NCBI RefSeq assembly: GCF_900215325.1
Contig: NZ_OCMS01000001.1
Coordinates: 1 to 64,000 of the forward strand
Direction of reading: 5' to 3'
From: Fibrobacter sp. UWB16
GTDB taxonomy: Bacteria; Fibrobacterota; Fibrobacteria; Fibrobacterales; Fibrobacteraceae
DNA length: 64,000 bases
Shown in pieces: positions 45,666 through 53,325 of this stretch (within the stretch, counting starts at the first letter, position 1; the number at the start of each line of letters is the position of its first letter). The notes below the pieces were generated by a model. It was not told the DNA's origin. It ran no database searches and was given only the letters and a program-made list of their open reading frames with translations. A program made the position numbers and the translations under genes.

Positions 45666-46529
45666 TCATTTTACCAAAGCAAGCAACTGTTCCTTGGTCA
45701 CAAGGTTCAGTACCGAAAACGCCGTCATTTTACAGCCTAAATCCATAATCGAAGCCCCAACATGATATACAGTTTCGTCAACAATGATAAATCTGTCGTG
45801 AACATCACGCATTGTCCGCAATACAACAGTCGGAAATTGCCGATTTATGCGGTCAACTTCATCGTTCATCGCACGCGTAATTCGAGCGGAATAAATGACG
45901 GCATTGACACCAGCAACTCGTTTTGCAACAAGCGAAAGCGATGTATCATTAGCAAACGGATCTATGATTATGATTTCTTTTTTCGCGGAGCGAACTAATT
46001 GCACTGCAAATTCATAACCGCTCCAACGAGCATTAGCTGGTATAACGCCCTCGCTAGGTGGAAGATTTGCTTTGACAAAGAAGTCCACCTGTTTTTCAAG
46101 GTTAACAACACGAGAATCCAAATTCTCGAGTTTATTTTCTTGAGAAATCAATCGTTGGTTAACACTATACCCCTTAAGCAAATGCTCTTTGAGAACCTGA
46201 TTTGCCCATCGACGAAATTGTGTACCTTGGATAGATTTTACTCGATACCCGACAGAAATGATGACATCGAGATTGTAGAAATTTGTAGGTTTGGTAGAAA
46301 AATCGGAATTTCCGATTTTTCTTACCGATTCATTTTTCAATATTTCACCCTCAGATAGGGCATTTAATATATGCTCGTTTATAGTTGAACGAGATTTCCC
46401 AAAAAGAAGAGCCATTTGATCAATCGTCAGCCATACTGTTTCGTTTTCAACTCGTACAGGCAACTGAATAGCACCTTCAGGCTGGTACATGATAATTTCA
46501 CCATCTAATGATAAATTCTTCTTATTCAT
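45666..46529 (-). CDS. RhuM-like DNA-binding protein with PLD-like C-terminus
   Basis: 287 aa. N-terminal RhuM-type virulence domain: VWLTIDQMALLFGKSRSTIN with EHILNALSEGEI, FYNLDVIISVGYRVKSIQGT, FRRWANQVLKEHLLKGY. A short coiled linker (ENLDSRVVNLEKQVDFFV) joins a C-terminal domain with WSGYEFAVQLVRSAKKEIII then DPFAND and HDRFIIVDETVYHVGAS, which looks like half of a phospholipase D/nuclease fold with the HxxxxIVD signature. GGAGG Shine-Dalgarno. AT-rich, likely mobile. Such proteins are found in genomic islands; role in defence or virulence unproven. Confidence 0.75.
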   Translation of the reverse strand: MNKKNLSLDGEIIMYQPEGAIQLPVRVENETVWLTIDQMALLFGKSRSTINEHILNALSEGEILKNESVRKIGNSDFSTKPTNFYNLDVIISVGYRVKSIQGTQFRRWANQVLKEHLLKGYSVNQRLISQENKLENLDSRVVNLEKQVDFFVKANLPPSEGVIPANARWSGYEFAVQLVRSAKKEIIIIDPFANDTSLSLVAKRVAGVNAVIYSARITRAMNDEVDRINRQFPTVVLRTMRDVHDRFIIVDETVYHVGASIMDLGCKMTAFSVLNLVTKEQLLALVK

Positions 46530-46630: not shown

Positions 46631-46673
46631 TATAAAAAAAATCCGCCCCTGCGGTGAAGCAGGAAGCGGATTT
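46631..46673 (-). terminator. Terminator of the radical SAM gene; left copy of a 43-bp direct repeat
   Basis: On the minus strand the stem AAATCCGC..GCGGATTT with inner CCTGC/GCAGG and a T7 tail is a strong Rho-independent terminator. The sequence is identical, base for base, to 49311-49353. Confidence 0.9.
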
Positions 46674-46696
46674 ACTACATAATGCTACAAAGCTAT

Positions 46697-48157
46697 TTAC
46701 TTGCTTGCGTATGCAGCTTTTGCAGCCATGTCAGATGTCATATATCTGAGATCTTGTATAAGATTCGGATCCTGACCTCCGGACAGCGAAACGGCCTCTT
46801 GCATAACGCGCAAGCCTTCTTCAGCCTGACCGAGCCGATACAAGGCCAAAGCTCGACCACCCATAGCATAAGTGTCCATGCTATTGATGTTCAAAGCCTT
46901 CTCGTTTGCTTCAAGGCACGATTCATAGTTGCCGCACATGAATTCGCTGTAGCCAATAGCCCTGTAAACATCGGCATTATTGGGATCCAGTTCCTGCGCA
47001 CGTTTCAAAGCAAAGGAGGCTTCTTGGTAGTTGCCCTGAGGAATCAACGCTTCGGCCAGCTTGAGCAAAGCAGAAGCACTGTCGCACTTGCCATACTTTG
47101 TTTCCTTTTCCTTTAGAGAAAGGTTGTATGCGCAATATTCATTTTCCTCATAAATGCTACCCTTCATCGTGAGACGCGTATTCGGGCAGCCGCCAAGGCA
47201 CTTGGAACCATAAATGCACTTTTTGCAAGAACCAGAAAGTTTGTCCTTAGTCATCTGGCGACGCCACAAAAATGCGTTTTTATCTTCCCAAATTTCACGC
47301 AACTTTCTTTCGCGGATATTCCCTTCGATGAATTCCTTGGAACGAATCGAAGTACAACCCAAGATATCACCATTATGCAAAATCCCGAAACCACGAATTC
47401 CCGCATTGCAGCCATCCCACAAGGAATAACCATTTGACTTGTAGGACATACGCCTTGTTTCAAGATCCTTCATTGAATAGTATCCAATACAATCCGCAGG
47501 ATAAATATCGATCCTACCCTCTTTTGCCGTATCGTAACAAAAATCAATGATATCCCTGACCTGTCTCGGTTCAAGGAGCCAATCAGGGCGTTCCTTCAAA
47601 TTGCCCATAGGCAAACCAAGTTGAACCTGCCACGTGTCAACGCCCATGCGGATAAGCTCTTCCTTCAATTCCGGAAGATTATCCATATTCTGCTTCGTGA
47701 TAGTCGTGACGGCACCGGTCTTTATTCCCAATTCCTTCATTGCGGCGAAAGCTTGCCTAGCATGTTCAAAGGCACCTTTTTTCCTGATTTTATCATGGAT
47801 TTCAGGCGTTCCGTCAATGCTAATCGCAACCGTGGCAATACCATTCTCTTTTAACTTTTTTGCCATCTTTGCGTCAAGGAGCCAACCGTTCGTGATCATA
47901 TTCACGATAACGCCATTACCAGAAAGACGTTTCACCAATTCAGGCGTATCTTGTCTCGTAAGAGGTTCGCCTCCAGACAAGGTAATCCATTTCAGTCCAA
48001 TATCAGCAATCTGATCACACAAATCAAGAGCTTCCTCGGTGCTCAATTGTCCCGGGAGAGCGCCCTCACAAGAAGAACCACAATGCCCACAGCGAAAGTT
48101 GCAGCCCATCGTTACTTCCCAGACTGCAGTGATGGGCTGATACCCAATATTTGCCAT
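46697..48157 (-). CDS. Radical SAM/SPASM peptide-maturase-like enzyme with C-terminal TPRs
   Basis: 486 aa from the ATG at 48157 (AGAGG 4-5 nt upstream). Residues 15-215: radical SAM barrel with the Cys19-x3-Cys23-x2-Cys26 cluster motif (MGCNFRCGHC), GGE at 62-64, and AISIDGTPEIHDKIRKKGAF. Residues 250-345: SPASM domain with Cys 250, 268, 311, 314, 320, 324 and 342 (CKKCIYGSKCLGGCPNTR), enough for two auxiliary 4Fe-4S clusters. Residues about 355-470: TPR-like repeats (GNYQEASFALKRAQELDPNN, ADVYRAIGYSEFMCG), which could dock a repeat-containing peptide. It lies 69 nt downstream of the repeat-protein gene and shares its RBS style. SPASM enzymes typically modify peptides by C-S or C-C cross-linking; the exact reaction is unknown. 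No N-terminal RRE-like domain is obvious. Confidence 0.88.
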   Translation of the reverse strand: MANIGYQPITAVWEVTMGCNFRCGHCGSSCEGALPGQLSTEEALDLCDQIADIGLKWITLSGGEPLTRQDTPELVKRLSGNGVIVNMITNGWLLDAKMAKKLKENGIATVAISIDGTPEIHDKIRKKGAFEHARQAFAAMKELGIKTGAVTTITKQNMDNLPELKEELIRMGVDTWQVQLGLPMGNLKERPDWLLEPRQVRDIIDFCYDTAKEGRIDIYPADCIGYYSMKDLETRRMSYKSNGYSLWDGCNAGIRGFGILHNGDILGCTSIRSKEFIEGNIRERKLREIWEDKNAFLWRRQMTKDKLSGSCKKCIYGSKCLGGCPNTRLTMKGSIYEENEYCAYNLSLKEKETKYGKCDSASALLKLAEALIPQGNYQEASFALKRAQELDPNNADVYRAIGYSEFMCGNYESCLEANEKALNINSMDTYAMGGRALALYRLGQAEEGLRVMQEAVSLSGGQDPNLIQDLRYMTSDMAAKAAYASK

Positions 48158-48170
48158 AAAAACCTCTAAG

Positions 48171-48201
48171 CAGCCTGCCAGCATTCAAGGCCAGCAGGCT
48201 G
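48171..48201 (-). promoter_or_regulatory. Intercistronic hairpin between precursor and maturase genes
   Basis: CAGCCTGC (48194-48201) / GCAGGCTG (48171-48178) perfect 8-bp stem with 15-nt loop, between stop and Shine-Dalgarno. Not followed by a T run, so more likely mRNA processing, stabilising or partial attenuation, giving more precursor than enzyme. Confidence 0.65.
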
Positions 48202-48226
48202 TTTTTATCATGTATTCTGATTTATT

Positions 48227-49165
48227 TTAACAGTCAGACTTCTGCGAATCGCACTTGAAGCCGTACATAAAAGCAGCGTCTTTTTTCGTTGCTGCATCTT
48301 GAACGCCGCACGGATAGCCGTACTTCAAGGCGGCATCCTGTACTCCGCAGGGATAACCATACTTCAAAGCGACGTCATTTGTACAGTTCTTGTAACCGTA
48401 TGCCATGGCAGCTTCCCTGTTCGATGCAGCATCCTGAACACCGCAAGGATAGCCATACTTCATCAAAGGCAAATCGCAAGGATAACCGTACTTCATCAAA
48501 GGAGCATCATTTGTGCCGCAGGGGTAACCGTACTTCAAAGCGGCTTCTCGATTTGGAGATGCGTCCTGAGCTCCACAAGGATAGCCATACTTCATCAAGG
48601 GTGCATCATTTACACCACAAGGATACCCATACTTCACTACAGGTGCTTCGCTTGTATTGCAAGGATAACCGTACTTCATCAAGGGTGCATCTTGAACGCC
48701 ACAGGGATAGCCATACTTCATCAGGGGAGCATCCTGAACTCCACAAGGATAGCCATACTTCACAACGGCTTCTTGCGAGCCGAGAACAAGGCCATAGGGC
48801 ATTGCAGGGCCGGCAACAGCTCTGATTGTAGCGTCAGAGTTTTCGCTAAATTTTGCAAATTCATCAGAATCGCTCGGAATTACGTTCAACAGCACCGTAT
48901 GCGTCTTTTTCGTAGCGGACATATCCGTAAAGTTAATCAACGTGAATTCAAGTTCAGACTTGTCTTCCGTTGCAGAAACAGCTCCAAACCAGAATCTCTG
49001 GATAACAGGAGCAACCCCTGTTGCTGTTGAGATTGTCTCTGTACTCAGCAGAGCGATGCCCTGCGGAAGTTTGGTCAGAGTCCAACCATAATTTGTGGAA
49101 CCGAACATTGATTGCAGTTCAATCGAGAAGGATTGACCCTGTAATACAACCATTTCTTTTGCCAT
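48227..49165 (-). CDS. Multicore RiPP-precursor-like protein: chagasin-like domain plus KYGYPCG repeats
   Basis: 312 aa. Residues 1-95 resemble a chagasin/I42 cysteine-protease-inhibitor fold (VLQGQSFSIELQSMFGSTN, YGWTLTKLPQGIALLS, FWFGAVSATE, LEFTLINF, THTVLLNVI). Residues 96-122 are a linker. From 123 to 312 the protein is tandem repeats of 11-19 aa: ten have exact KYGYPC (first at 136-141), usually followed by GVQDAPLM or variants, three by a longer form with NREAA or KKDAA, and two degenerate ones AYGYKNC (255-261) and MYGFKC (300-305). Each repeat has one Cys; total about 12 core Cys plus the final Cys312. No signal peptide. RBS AGAGG. This is the upstream partner of the radical SAM enzyme. 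Confidence 0.8.
   Translation of the reverse strand: MAKEMVVLQGQSFSIELQSMFGSTNYGWTLTKLPQGIALLSTETISTATGVAPVIQRFWFGAVSATEDKSELEFTLINFTDMSATKKTHTVLLNVIPSDSDEFAKFSENSDATIRAVAGPAMPYGLVLGSQEAVVKYGYPCGVQDAPLMKYGYPCGVQDAPLMKYGYPCNTSEAPVVKYGYPCGVNDAPLMKYGYPCGAQDASPNREAALKYGYPCGTNDAPLMKYGYPCDLPLMKYGYPCGVQDAASNREAAMAYGYKNCTNDVALKYGYPCGVQDAALKYGYPCGVQDAATKKDAAFMYGFKCDSQKSDC
48230..48760 (-). repeat. KYGYPCG-coding tandem repeat array
   Basis: About twelve DNA units, basic length 42 nt (14 codons), with in-frame variants of 33, 39 and 57 nt. Codons differ between copies (for example GGATAGCC versus GGATAACC in the GYP codons) while KYGYPC is kept, which suggests selection at protein level. Confidence 0.85.
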
Positions 49166-49310
49166 AAAATACCTCTTTTTGGTGAATTATTGGAAATTCA
49201 TCATTTATCTTAAAAATTTATTTTATGGTCAGCTAATTGTAACAAAAATATAACAAAACTTTGTAAATAATACTTTATTGTATAAAACAAATAAACTATT
49301 AAAAACAAGC
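49166..49310 (-). promoter_or_regulatory. Promoter region of the precursor-maturase operon
   Basis: AT-rich 145 nt. TATATTTT on the minus strand (49245-49252) fits the local -10 style, giving a leader of about 75 nt before the ATG at 49165. No operator dyad recognised. Confidence 0.4.
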
Positions 49311-49353
49311 TATAAAAAAAATCCGCCCCTGCGGTGAAGCAGGAAGCGGATTT
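49311..49353 (-). terminator. Terminator of purL; right copy of the 43-bp direct repeat
   Basis: Identical to 46631-46673. It ends purL transcription and insulates the cassette downstream. Confidence 0.9.
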
Positions 49354-49449: not shown

Positions 49450-52400
49450 TTACCCTACGAATATACGACCGTTGCGGAACAGCTGCATCCACGGGCCATC
49501 TTCACCCCATTCTGCCGGGTGCCAAGAGTATTGGCAGGTGCGGAACACGCGTTCCGGGTGCGGCATCATCACGAGGGCGCGGCCGTCTTCAGAGCAGAGG
49601 CCGTTGATGCCAAACGGGGAGCCGTTCGGGTTGAGCGGGTAGCGTTCGGTGTATTCGTGCTTGCCATCCACATAGCGGAGCGCCACGAGACCGGTCTTGA
49701 GGCAGGCTTCGGCAGCTTCGCGGCTTGCGAATTCAGCACGGCCTTCACCGTGAGCAACAGCGATCGGGAGGACAGAACCTGCCATGCCCTTGAGGAGCAC
49801 TGCCGGCGTATCTTCGACCTTCAAAGAGCAGTAGCGAGCTTCGAAGCGTTCGGAGATGTTCTGCACAAAGCGCGGCCAGTGCTTAGCGCCCGGAATCAAA
49901 TCCTTGAGGTTCGAGACCATCTGGCAACCGTTGCAAACGCCGAGCGTGAAGGTATCCTTGCGGTTGAAGTAAGCTTCGAATTCAGCGCGAGCCTTCGGGT
50001 TGAACAAGATGCTCTTGGCCCAGCCTTCGCCTGCACCGAGAACGTCACCGTAGCTAAAGCCACCGCAAGCAACGAGACCGTTGAAGTCCTTGAGGCTTAC
50101 GCGACCGGAGAGGATGTCCGTCATGTGAACGTCGATAGATTCGAAGCCAGCCTTTGCAAATGCGGCAGCCATTTCGAGTTCGCCATTGACACCCTGTTCA
50201 CGAAGTATTGCCATCTTCGGGCGGCTTGCGTAATCCTTGATGACCTTGGCGCTAGCAGCGAGATCGAACGTGACCTTCGGCGTGATACCCGGATCGTCCT
50301 GTTCGAGCTTGAGCTTGTATTCGCTTTCGGCACATTCCGGATTGTCACGGAGGGCGGCAATGCGGCGAGTCGTATCACTCCAGATGGCGCGCAGGTCAGA
50401 GAGGCCTTCGGTGTAGTCGCCAATCACAATGTTATACGTATCGTTAAGCTTACCGATTTCAGAAACGGTATCGCCGAGACCGACAGCTTCGAAAGCAGCC
50501 TTCACAGCAGCGAGGTCTGCGTTTGCAACCTGGAGGACGGCGCCGAGTTCTTCGTTGAACAAAGCGTCAATCACATTGCCCTTGAGAGCTGTAGCGTCGA
50601 GCGTTACGCCCACGTGACCGGCAAATGCCATTTCGACAACCGTCGTGAAGAGGCCGCCATCGCTCTTATCGTGGTAAGCCATAATCTTGCCATCGGCATT
50701 GAGCTTCTGGATGGTTTCGAAGAAGGCGCGAAGTTCCTTAGCGGAATCGACATCCGGAGCCTTGTCACCGAGGAGGTTGTAAACCTGAGCGGCAATGGAT
50801 GCGCCCATACGGTTCTTGCCACGAGCGAGGTCCACGAGCACAAGCGTCGTATCCTTCTTCTGCAAGAGCTGCGGCGTGAGCGTCTTGCGCACGTCGGCAC
50901 ACGGAGCAAAGGCACTAATCACAAGAGAAATCGGAGCGGTCACGCGGTGGCTACCCTTTTCGTCCTGCCACACAGTGCTCATGCTCATGGAGTCCTTACC
51001 GACCGGAATCGTAATGCCAAGTTCCGGGCAAAGTTCCATACCGATGGACTTCACGGCTTCGTACAAGTCAGCGCCATCACCTTCGTAGTTCGGCGTTGCC
51101 ATCCAGTTTGCGGACAAGTTTACGCGGCCCATATCCGGGACGCAAGCGGCAGCCATGTTCGTGAGGGATTCAGCAACCGTCATACGAGCTGCAGCAGCCG
51201 GAGAAATGAGAGCAATCGGAGCGCGTTCGCCCATACTCATGACTTCGCCTTCGTACGTGTCGAGCGTTGCACTCGTCACGGCGCAGTCAGCAACCGGCAC
51301 CTGCCACGGACCAACCATCTGGTCACGGCAAATCATACCCGTCACGGAACGGTCACCAATGGAAATCAAGAACGTCTTATCTGCAACGGTCGGGTTAGCA
51401 AGCACGCGATGTGCAAGTTCCTTCACCGTCACACCAGCCGGCACCACCTGAGAAGAGAGCGGGCGCTTCTGGGACTTTTCATTGCGGATCATGCGAGGCG
51501 GCTTGCCGAGGAGAACGCCGAGCGGCATGTCAATCGGAGTCGTACCGAAGTGCTTGTCTGTAAGGGTCAAGTGCTTTTCAGGGATTGCCTCGCCCACCAC
51601 GGCGTACGGGCAGCGTTCACGCTTACAGATAGCGTCGAACACATCGAGCTTGTCACCAGCAATTGCGATAACATAACGTTCCTGGGATTCGTTACTCCAA
51701 ATTTCGAACGGGCTCATGCCCGGTTCGTCATTCGGCACGTTGCGGAGTTCAAACTTACCGCCGAGGCCGCCATCGTTCACGAGTTCCGGGAAGGCGTTCG
51801 AAAGTCCACCTGCACCCACGTCATGAATAAACGTAATCGGGTTTTCTTCGTTCATCGCCCAGCAGCGGTCGATGACTTCCTGGCAGCGGCGTTCCATTTC
51901 CGGGTTTTCACGCTGCACAGAAGCAAAGTCGAGAGATTCATTACCGGCACCGTTAGCAACAGAGCTAGCTGCACCGCCACCAAGACCGATCAACATGGCC
52001 GGACCACCAAGAACGATCAAGTGGTCACCCGGGTCGATGTGGCCCTTTTCAATGTGCTGGTGCTTGATGTTGCCAAGACCGCCAGCAAGCATAATCGGTT
52101 TGTGGTAACCACGAACTTCAGTACCCTTTTCAGAAGAAACTTCCTGTTCGAACGTACGGAAGTAACCGAGGATGTTCGGACGACCGTATTCGTTGTTGAA
52201 TGCGGCACCACCGAGCGGGCCGTCAATCATAATGTCGAGAGCAGAAGCGATGCGGGACGGGCTACCAAAGTCCTTTTCCCACGGCTGAACTGCACCCGGA
52301 AGCTTGAGGTTTGAAACGCTGAAGCCCGTAAGGCCAGCCTTCGGCTTGGAACCCTTACCCGTTGCACCTTCGTCACGGATTTCACCACCACTACCCGTAG

Positions 52401-53325
52401 CGGCACCCGGGAACGGAGAAATCGCCGTCGGGTGGTTGTGGGTTTCGACCTTCATGAGGATATCGACTTCTTCGTTGTGGAAGTCGTACTTGTTGTTGCG
52501 CGGGTCAGCGTAGAAACGGCCAGCCGTTGCACCCTTCATCACAGCGGCGTTATCCTTGTAAGCGCTGAAGATGTTGGAATTGTGGAGCTGGTAAGTGTTC
52601 TTGATCATCTGGAACAAGGACTTGTCCTGCTTCACGCCATCGATGGTCCATTCGGCACCGAACACCTTGTGGCGGCAGTGTTCCGAGTTTGCCTGCGCGA
52701 ACATGTAAAGTTCCACGTCGGTCGGATTGCGCTTGAGTTCGGTGAAGTTCTTGACGAGGTAATCGATTTCGTCCGGAGAAAGAGCGAGGCCCATTTCCTT
52801 GTCGGCCTTCACGAGGGCGTCGCGGCCTTCGGTAAGCACCGGAATCACGTTCAGCGGACGCGGTTCTTCCTTGCTGAAGAGCACTTCGAGGGAAGCGGTG
52901 TCAGCAAACACGGCCTGAGTCATGCGGTCGTGAATCTTGGCAGAAACCTTTTCGCGGGCACCGGCGGGAGCAGCACCTTCAAACTTCACGTAGTAAGCAA
53001 TGGCGCGTTCGATGCGCTTGATTGCCGGGAGGCCGCAAATGTGAGCGATATCGGTAGCCTTCGAGCTCCACGGGCTGATTGTACCCGGACGCGGGCAGAC
53101 CACAAAGAGTTCACCTTCGAGCGCCTTGACTTCGCGCATCGGGCCGTAATGAAGGACCTTTTCGAGCGTTTCCTTTTCGGAAGCGGTCAGGTCGGCGGAC
53201 AGATCCACCACATGGAGGAATTCGGCATACACAGATGCAACCGGAATCCCAGCGGCCTTAAAATCAGATGAAAGCTTTTGCAGACGGAAATCCGACAGAG
53301 CCGGAGTACCACGAAGAATGAGCAT
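49450..53325 (-). CDS. purL: Phosphoribosylformylglycinamidine synthase, single-chain
   Basis: 1291 aa, the large gamma-proteobacterial/eukaryotic-type FGAM synthase (step 4 of purine synthesis). N-terminal PurS-like region, then ATP-grasp-like/AIRS domains ([87 protein letters not shown]). C-terminal class I glutaminase with [12 protein letters not shown] (Cys), HGEGRAEF and MPHPERVFR (His, Glu). TATATTTG promoter element 34 nt before the ATG. Confidence 0.96.

Follow-up and report, generated by a model that had tools for sequence, protein, structure and literature searches.

PlpX is a SPASM radical SAM enzyme that, together with the truncated RRE PlpY, cuts tyramine from Xaa-Tyr-Gly (XYG) and thereby leaves an alpha-keto-beta-amino residue (PMC11002830; PMC10533398). 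The PlpXY splicease of Pleurocapsa was reported by Morinaka et al. (2018), and is cited here as summarized in two later articles (PMC11002830; PMC10533398). The characterized splice tag, from PlpA2, is PIRP[L/G]YGLPI (PMC10533398, Table 1), and spliceotides have been reported as protease inhibitors (PMC11117315; PMC10373908). Papers that cite the survey by Scott et al. (2022; Chem 8:2659) describe ribosomal peptides and proteins containing beta-amino acids as widespread in bacteria, with products that inhibit proteases.

We analyzed a 64,000-nt stretch of the rumen bacterium Fibrobacter sp. UWB16 (contig NZ_OCMS01000001.1, positions 1 to 64,000; here, the window), in which an earlier note had pointed to a repeat protein gene beside a radical SAM gene as a candidate peptide modification system. 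The cassette is a real and widespread two-gene system, for which the best explanation is a splicease-like pathway that works as spliceotide pathways do but uses another scaffold. Its formal membership in that class is unproven, since the chemistry is predicted, no PlpY was found and the family cut-off was missed (see below).

Organization of the cassette and its flanking DNA

Downstream of purL (49450-53325), the minus strand carries the precursor gene (48227-49165) and, 69 nt farther on, the enzyme gene (46697-48157). The layout described in the earlier note was confirmed, with a 312-aa repeat protein that carries ten exact KYGYPC units 69 nt away from a SPASM enzyme on the same strand. Its claim of near-identical ribosome-binding sites also held (i.e., AGAGG with a T-rich leader precedes both start codons), as did the terminator assigned to the cassette, a 35-bp hairpin of terminator-like form that follows the enzyme gene (46639-46673, minus strand). 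The cassette's own promoter did not hold up, as our scan returned 4 promoter-like sites against 5.1 expected by chance. The cassette contains neither a transporter nor a protease gene.

A second, identical copy of the 35-mer lies in direct orientation at 49319-49353 (minus strand), between the end of purL and the start of the cassette, so that the cassette has one copy on each side. No further match was found in the 3.56-Mb genome. The copy at 49319-49353 is probably the terminator of purL, and the pair is possibly a duplicated purL terminator that marks an insertion. Hairpins related to this element also border the cassette in two other loci (L001 and L055 of the set described below). The next gene after the enzyme gene (45666-46529, minus strand) encodes a RhuM-family protein with a strong match to the PADLOC candidate defence family PDC-S05 (2.2e-113).

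A repeat protein with a chagasin-like N-terminal domain

The precursor consists of a chagasin-like N-terminal domain (approximately residues 1 to 108; 48842-49165, minus strand) and a repeat region with 13 putative splice sites (YG at residues 124 to 302; 48230-48799, minus strand). Of its 14 YG dipeptides, one (NYG, Y26) belongs to the N-terminal domain, and the other 13 fall within the C-terminal two-thirds. Ten of the 13 C-terminal sites are exact KYGYPC, while the other three are PYGLVL, AYGYKNC and MYGFKC. Both YG (13 versus 2.6 expected) and PC (10 versus 1.1 expected) are enriched in this part of the protein. Among the ten KYGYPC units, 113 of the 270 pairwise codon comparisons differ and every difference is synonymous, which shows that selection on the protein, and not very recent duplication of the DNA, maintains the motif. 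A Pfam XylR_N match to the precursor (7.6e-10; no single stretch passes) was rejected as a repeat artefact.

The N-terminal domain is predicted to be all-beta (AlphaFold2 pLDDT, 84.6). Foldseek ranks EhICP2, an inhibitor of cysteine proteases, as its best PDB match (E, 3e-5; TM, 0.64/0.69), and further matches are amoebiasin (6cjz), PbICP-C and chagasin. The Pfam I42 model (PF09394) matches the window domain at 18.8 bits (E, 0.002), under its gathering score of 27.2 bits, and a relative (L034) clears that score with 34.8 bits. The predicted structure, with its Foldseek matches, places the domain in the I42 fold of the chagasin-family inhibitors. We found no strongly hydrophobic stretch or evident export signal at the N terminus of the precursor; on this basis, and because the cassette lacks a transporter and a protease gene, the product may be cytosolic. 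In the literature that we searched, no paper connected chagasin with radical SAM enzymes, and the string KYGYP occurred in a single paper, which concerns mussel adhesion.

A radical SAM/SPASM-TPR enzyme next to the PlpX-type clade

The splicease-like enzyme has 486 aa (an alternative start would give 495 aa), with CxxxCxxC at residues 19/23/26, a Radical_SAM domain (1.9e-27), a SPASM domain (2.2e-8) and C-terminal TPRs (approximately residues 359 to 486; 46700-47083, minus strand). Its structural model (pLDDT, 92.2) comprises a barrel, a SPASM region and helical TPR repeats, and the nearest solved structures are PqqE, SkfB, anSME and SuiB. PADLOC viperin matches (5.5e-19) were set aside as generic radical SAM similarity.

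The best NCBIfam match is TIGR04103 (nif11-class maturase 3, equivalog), which we take to be the InterPro family of PlpX, IPR026482. The score of 229 bits is far under the 725-bit cut-off and is nearly equaled by the GDL-trio (201 bits) and heme b synthase (195 bits) models, so the HMM scores alone do not decide the assignment. TIGR04103 ranked first in the family list of each of the 38 relatives. In a phylogenetic tree with few outgroups and some long branches, the window enzyme clade adjoins a clade that comprises a Nostoc nif11-class maturase 3, GDL enzymes and a Tropicibacter enzyme, and it is separate from other Fibrobacterota SPASM enzymes. The window and PlpX-side clades have a common signature (WQ[VIL]Q...MG, [IV]GY[YF] and WxGCxAG) that differs in six comparison SPASM proteins. 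Thirteen positions common to the window clade and its neighbors are absent from these six, including Q179 and M184 (WQ[VIL]Q...MG), the second Tyr of [IV]GYY and the W of WxGCxAG. Our search of the loci and of the organism's own genome for PlpY or an RRE gave no significant homologue, although a divergent one could escape such a search.

Since the window clade is a neighbor of the PlpX-type clade, and since approximately 28 to 35% identity does not guarantee the same reaction, these enzymes might alter the Tyr of XYG in another way (e.g., oxidative decarboxylation, epimerization, or C-C bond formation without excision). The motif, the Pro at +3 and the signature of the active-site region are nevertheless common with the PlpX side, and we regard such a reaction as improbable.

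X-Tyr-Gly as the element common to the precursors

A site logo was built from 298 sites of 29 chagasin-type precursors, aligned on YG with the loci equally weighted. Position -1 is occupied by K (65%) or P (15%), position +2 by Y or F (81%), position +3 by P (70%) and position +4 by C (60%). The logo is centered on sites selected for YG, and the argument thus rests on the dispensability of Cys and on the recurrence of YG across scaffolds. YG exceeded all 300 shuffles in 28 of the 29 chagasin-type precursors, KY in 23, and YP and PC in 16 each. Beside related enzymes, XYG also occurs on GG-leader peptides (L036 to L038, L042 and L043), SLH-domain proteins (L030 and L031), a signal-peptide/dockerin protein (L029) and short peptides (L027 and L028). 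Judged from these sites, the element common to the precursors is X-Tyr-Gly, usually with Pro two residues past the Gly, and not Cys or the second Tyr. The earlier note had recognized no known motif in the repeats, but X-Tyr-Gly, often followed by a hydrophobic residue and Pro, is what PlpX-type spliceases act on. On this basis, each site should lose 135 Da instead of the 2 Da that had been proposed.

The earlier note had favored thioether or aryl C-C cross-links on the Cys, second Tyr or Pro of KYGYPCG cores (i.e., sactipeptide-, ranthipeptide- or cyclophane-like products). Such links are common products of SPASM radical SAM enzymes; the window precursor has 13 Cys for its 13 sites, and in ten of these sites Cys occupies position +4 relative to the first Tyr. 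In many precursors, the number of Cys also follows that of YG. This frequent Cys is a point against splicing, which alone does not explain it. Cys is nevertheless missing within six residues of 34% of the 298 chagasin-type sites (raw count; present in 66%) and of 76% of the sites on other scaffolds (present in 24%), where the +2 residue is aromatic in just 33%. Several precursors beside closely related enzymes lack Cys, and those of L006 and L034 are devoid of any YGxPC. The conserved Cys donor per core that defines sactipeptides and ranthipeptides was thus not found across the precursors, and the sactipeptide (StsB), ranthipeptide (PapB), dynobactin and WgkB models score well under TIGR04103 for the window enzyme. 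We therefore rejected Cys/Tyr cross-links as the main explanation and consider them very unlikely.

In termite-gut bacteria, XYG is found on dockerin and S-layer-homology proteins with the same enzyme clade adjacent (L029:5442-6002, L030:5213-5986 and L031:5026-5976). A plasmid of Agathobacter rectalis carries a 35-aa ORF without annotation (L075:4797-4904) that bears XYG in its final residues, MYGTGVRM, and closely precedes a related radical SAM gene and a gene for an MFS transporter; the ORF is likely a missed precursor. No XYG precursor was found beside the enzyme of L044, nor at the contig-edge loci L016 and L046. A 1,933-aa ORF downstream in L010 (also in L025 and L047), which had been included in YG counts, was discarded since its YG contexts are unrelated and it resembles a fibronectin-type repeat protein.

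Distribution and history of the cassette

A single scan of GTDB genomes yielded 47 related loci from Fibrobacterota, Bacillota, Bacteroidota and Pseudomonadota, most of which pair the enzyme with an XYG-bearing precursor. Blast clustering of these loci placed the enzyme in 46 and a chagasin-type precursor in 33. The latter is nearly always directly upstream of the enzyme, with downstream positions in two Bacteroides loci (L032 and L041) and in L033. Of 80 Fibrobacter genomes, 10 carry both genes, side by side, and none has one gene without the other. The co-occurrence that the earlier note had proposed as a check was thus observed, and its multi-site precursor/maturase pair stands; precursor and enzyme are genuinely linked. 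With this strict co-occurrence, and with adjacency across four phyla despite a differing gene order in Bacteroides, there is next to no chance that the precursor is an unmodified structural or metal-binding protein beside an unrelated radical SAM gene, a reading for which its high Cys content and the lack of an evident export signal might speak.

The window enzyme is 80 to 82% identical to enzymes of Butyrivibrio, a member of another phylum, and the Fibrobacter enzymes nest within those of Lachnospiraceae in the tree. Together with the patchy occurrence in Fibrobacter, these features suggest horizontal transfer, and the cassette looks to have been acquired from Lachnospiraceae. Within rumen and gut communities, the cassette seems to move from phylum to phylum.

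In 13 to 14 Lachnospiraceae-type loci (L010 to L015, L018, L021, L025, L035, L040, L045 and L047), conserved genes for an AgrC-like kinase (GHKL) and a LytTR regulator are found in divergent orientation upstream of the precursor gene, which suggests regulation by a sensed signal. Eleven of these loci also encode a conserved neighbor protein of approximately 310 aa (e.g., L013:1809-2744, minus strand). The homologue of this protein in L026 has a weak, sub-cut-off match to the permuted papain-like peptidase family C92 (E, 4.5e-4), a notable resemblance next to a chagasin-fold protein.

Proposed splicing and possible function

The gene linkage, the conserved XYG, the homology, the predicted folds and the place of the enzyme next to the PlpX-type clade lead us to a splicease-like reading, and we think it probable that the enzyme splices the XYG sites of the repeat protein. 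At each site used, the tyramine part of Tyr would be excised (-C8H9NO; -135.07 Da), and residue X would be joined via its carbonyl to the leftover Tyr carbonyl, such that each KYG would become an alpha-keto-beta-homolysine-Gly ketoamide. Up to approximately 13 sites per protein could be modified. The enzyme may recognize its precursor via the chagasin-like domain, its own TPR, or both, rather than via a PlpY-type RRE. The product would be a protein, probably cytosolic, whose inhibitor-like scaffold carries electrophilic ketoamides with Lys at P1 in most cases. The suggestion in the earlier note that the product may remain a modified protein is supported as a possibility.

Alpha-ketoamides are established reversible warheads against Ser and Cys proteases. 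From this chemistry, the predominance of Lys at P1 and the inhibitor-like scaffold, the most plausible function is that of a multivalent protease inhibitor, an assignment that we make tentatively; its most plausible targets would be Lys-directed proteases. A more speculative and rather doubtful extension is a bimodal inhibitor, in which the chagasin-fold domain would be combined with up to 13 mostly Lys-P1 ketoamide warheads installed by a self-sufficient TPR splicease. The Cys at +4 could then reversibly cap the ketone as an intramolecular hemithioketal and mask the warhead until needed, and the same enzyme clade would decorate the S-layer- and dockerin-type proteins of termite-gut bacteria.

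If splicing is correct, the precursor would be a protein-sized, naturally multi-site splicease substrate with Lys-derived ketoamides at most sites of an inhibitor-fold scaffold, and it would suggest protease inhibition as a role for such products in rumen and gut communities. The TPR-fused splicease would perhaps be independent of PlpY and could serve to introduce ketoamides into proteins; for labeling, homologues with higher processivity are sought (PMC10533398).

Comparison with known systems

The predicted fold of the precursor N-terminal domain resembles that of the MEROPS I42 (chagasin) family. The usual inhibitory loop motif of this family is NPTTGY, whereas the window domain has GSTNYGW in its place. 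The GDL-motif/DUF1843 "trio" maturases (TIGR03913) belong to the neighboring clade of the enzyme tree, and a short Azospirillum precursor of this type contains PYG; unlike the window repeat protein, however, their precursors are short DUF1843 peptides. The precursor of a GDL relative in Aureibacter has MYA instead of MYG. In Tropicibacter, the gene for a PlpX-like enzyme is directly followed by a trypsin-like peptidase gene (L078:2683-5491).

On a Nostoc plasmid, an annotated nif11-class maturase 3 lies beside a Nif11 precursor ending in IALYGLPPELF, and a 71-aa ORF at this locus is a possible PlpY. The consensus [K/P]YG[Y/F]P fits both this precursor end and the PlpA2 splice tag. The cassette may already be covered by the survey of Scott et al. 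(2022).

The window system differs from PlpXY in its precursor, where a chagasin-fold protein bearing 13 sites, mostly KYG, takes the place of a Nif11/NHLP-leader peptide, and in its enzyme, which has a C-terminal TPR, is accompanied by no PlpY/RRE gene that we could find, scores under the TIGR04103 cut-off, and has a predicted chemistry. In both systems, an XYG precursor is encoded beside a SPASM radical SAM enzyme, as is characteristic of spliceotide pathways, and both have the YG-hydrophobic-Pro context. Several sites per precursor are possible in PlpXY systems as well, and spliceases accept sites within larger proteins.
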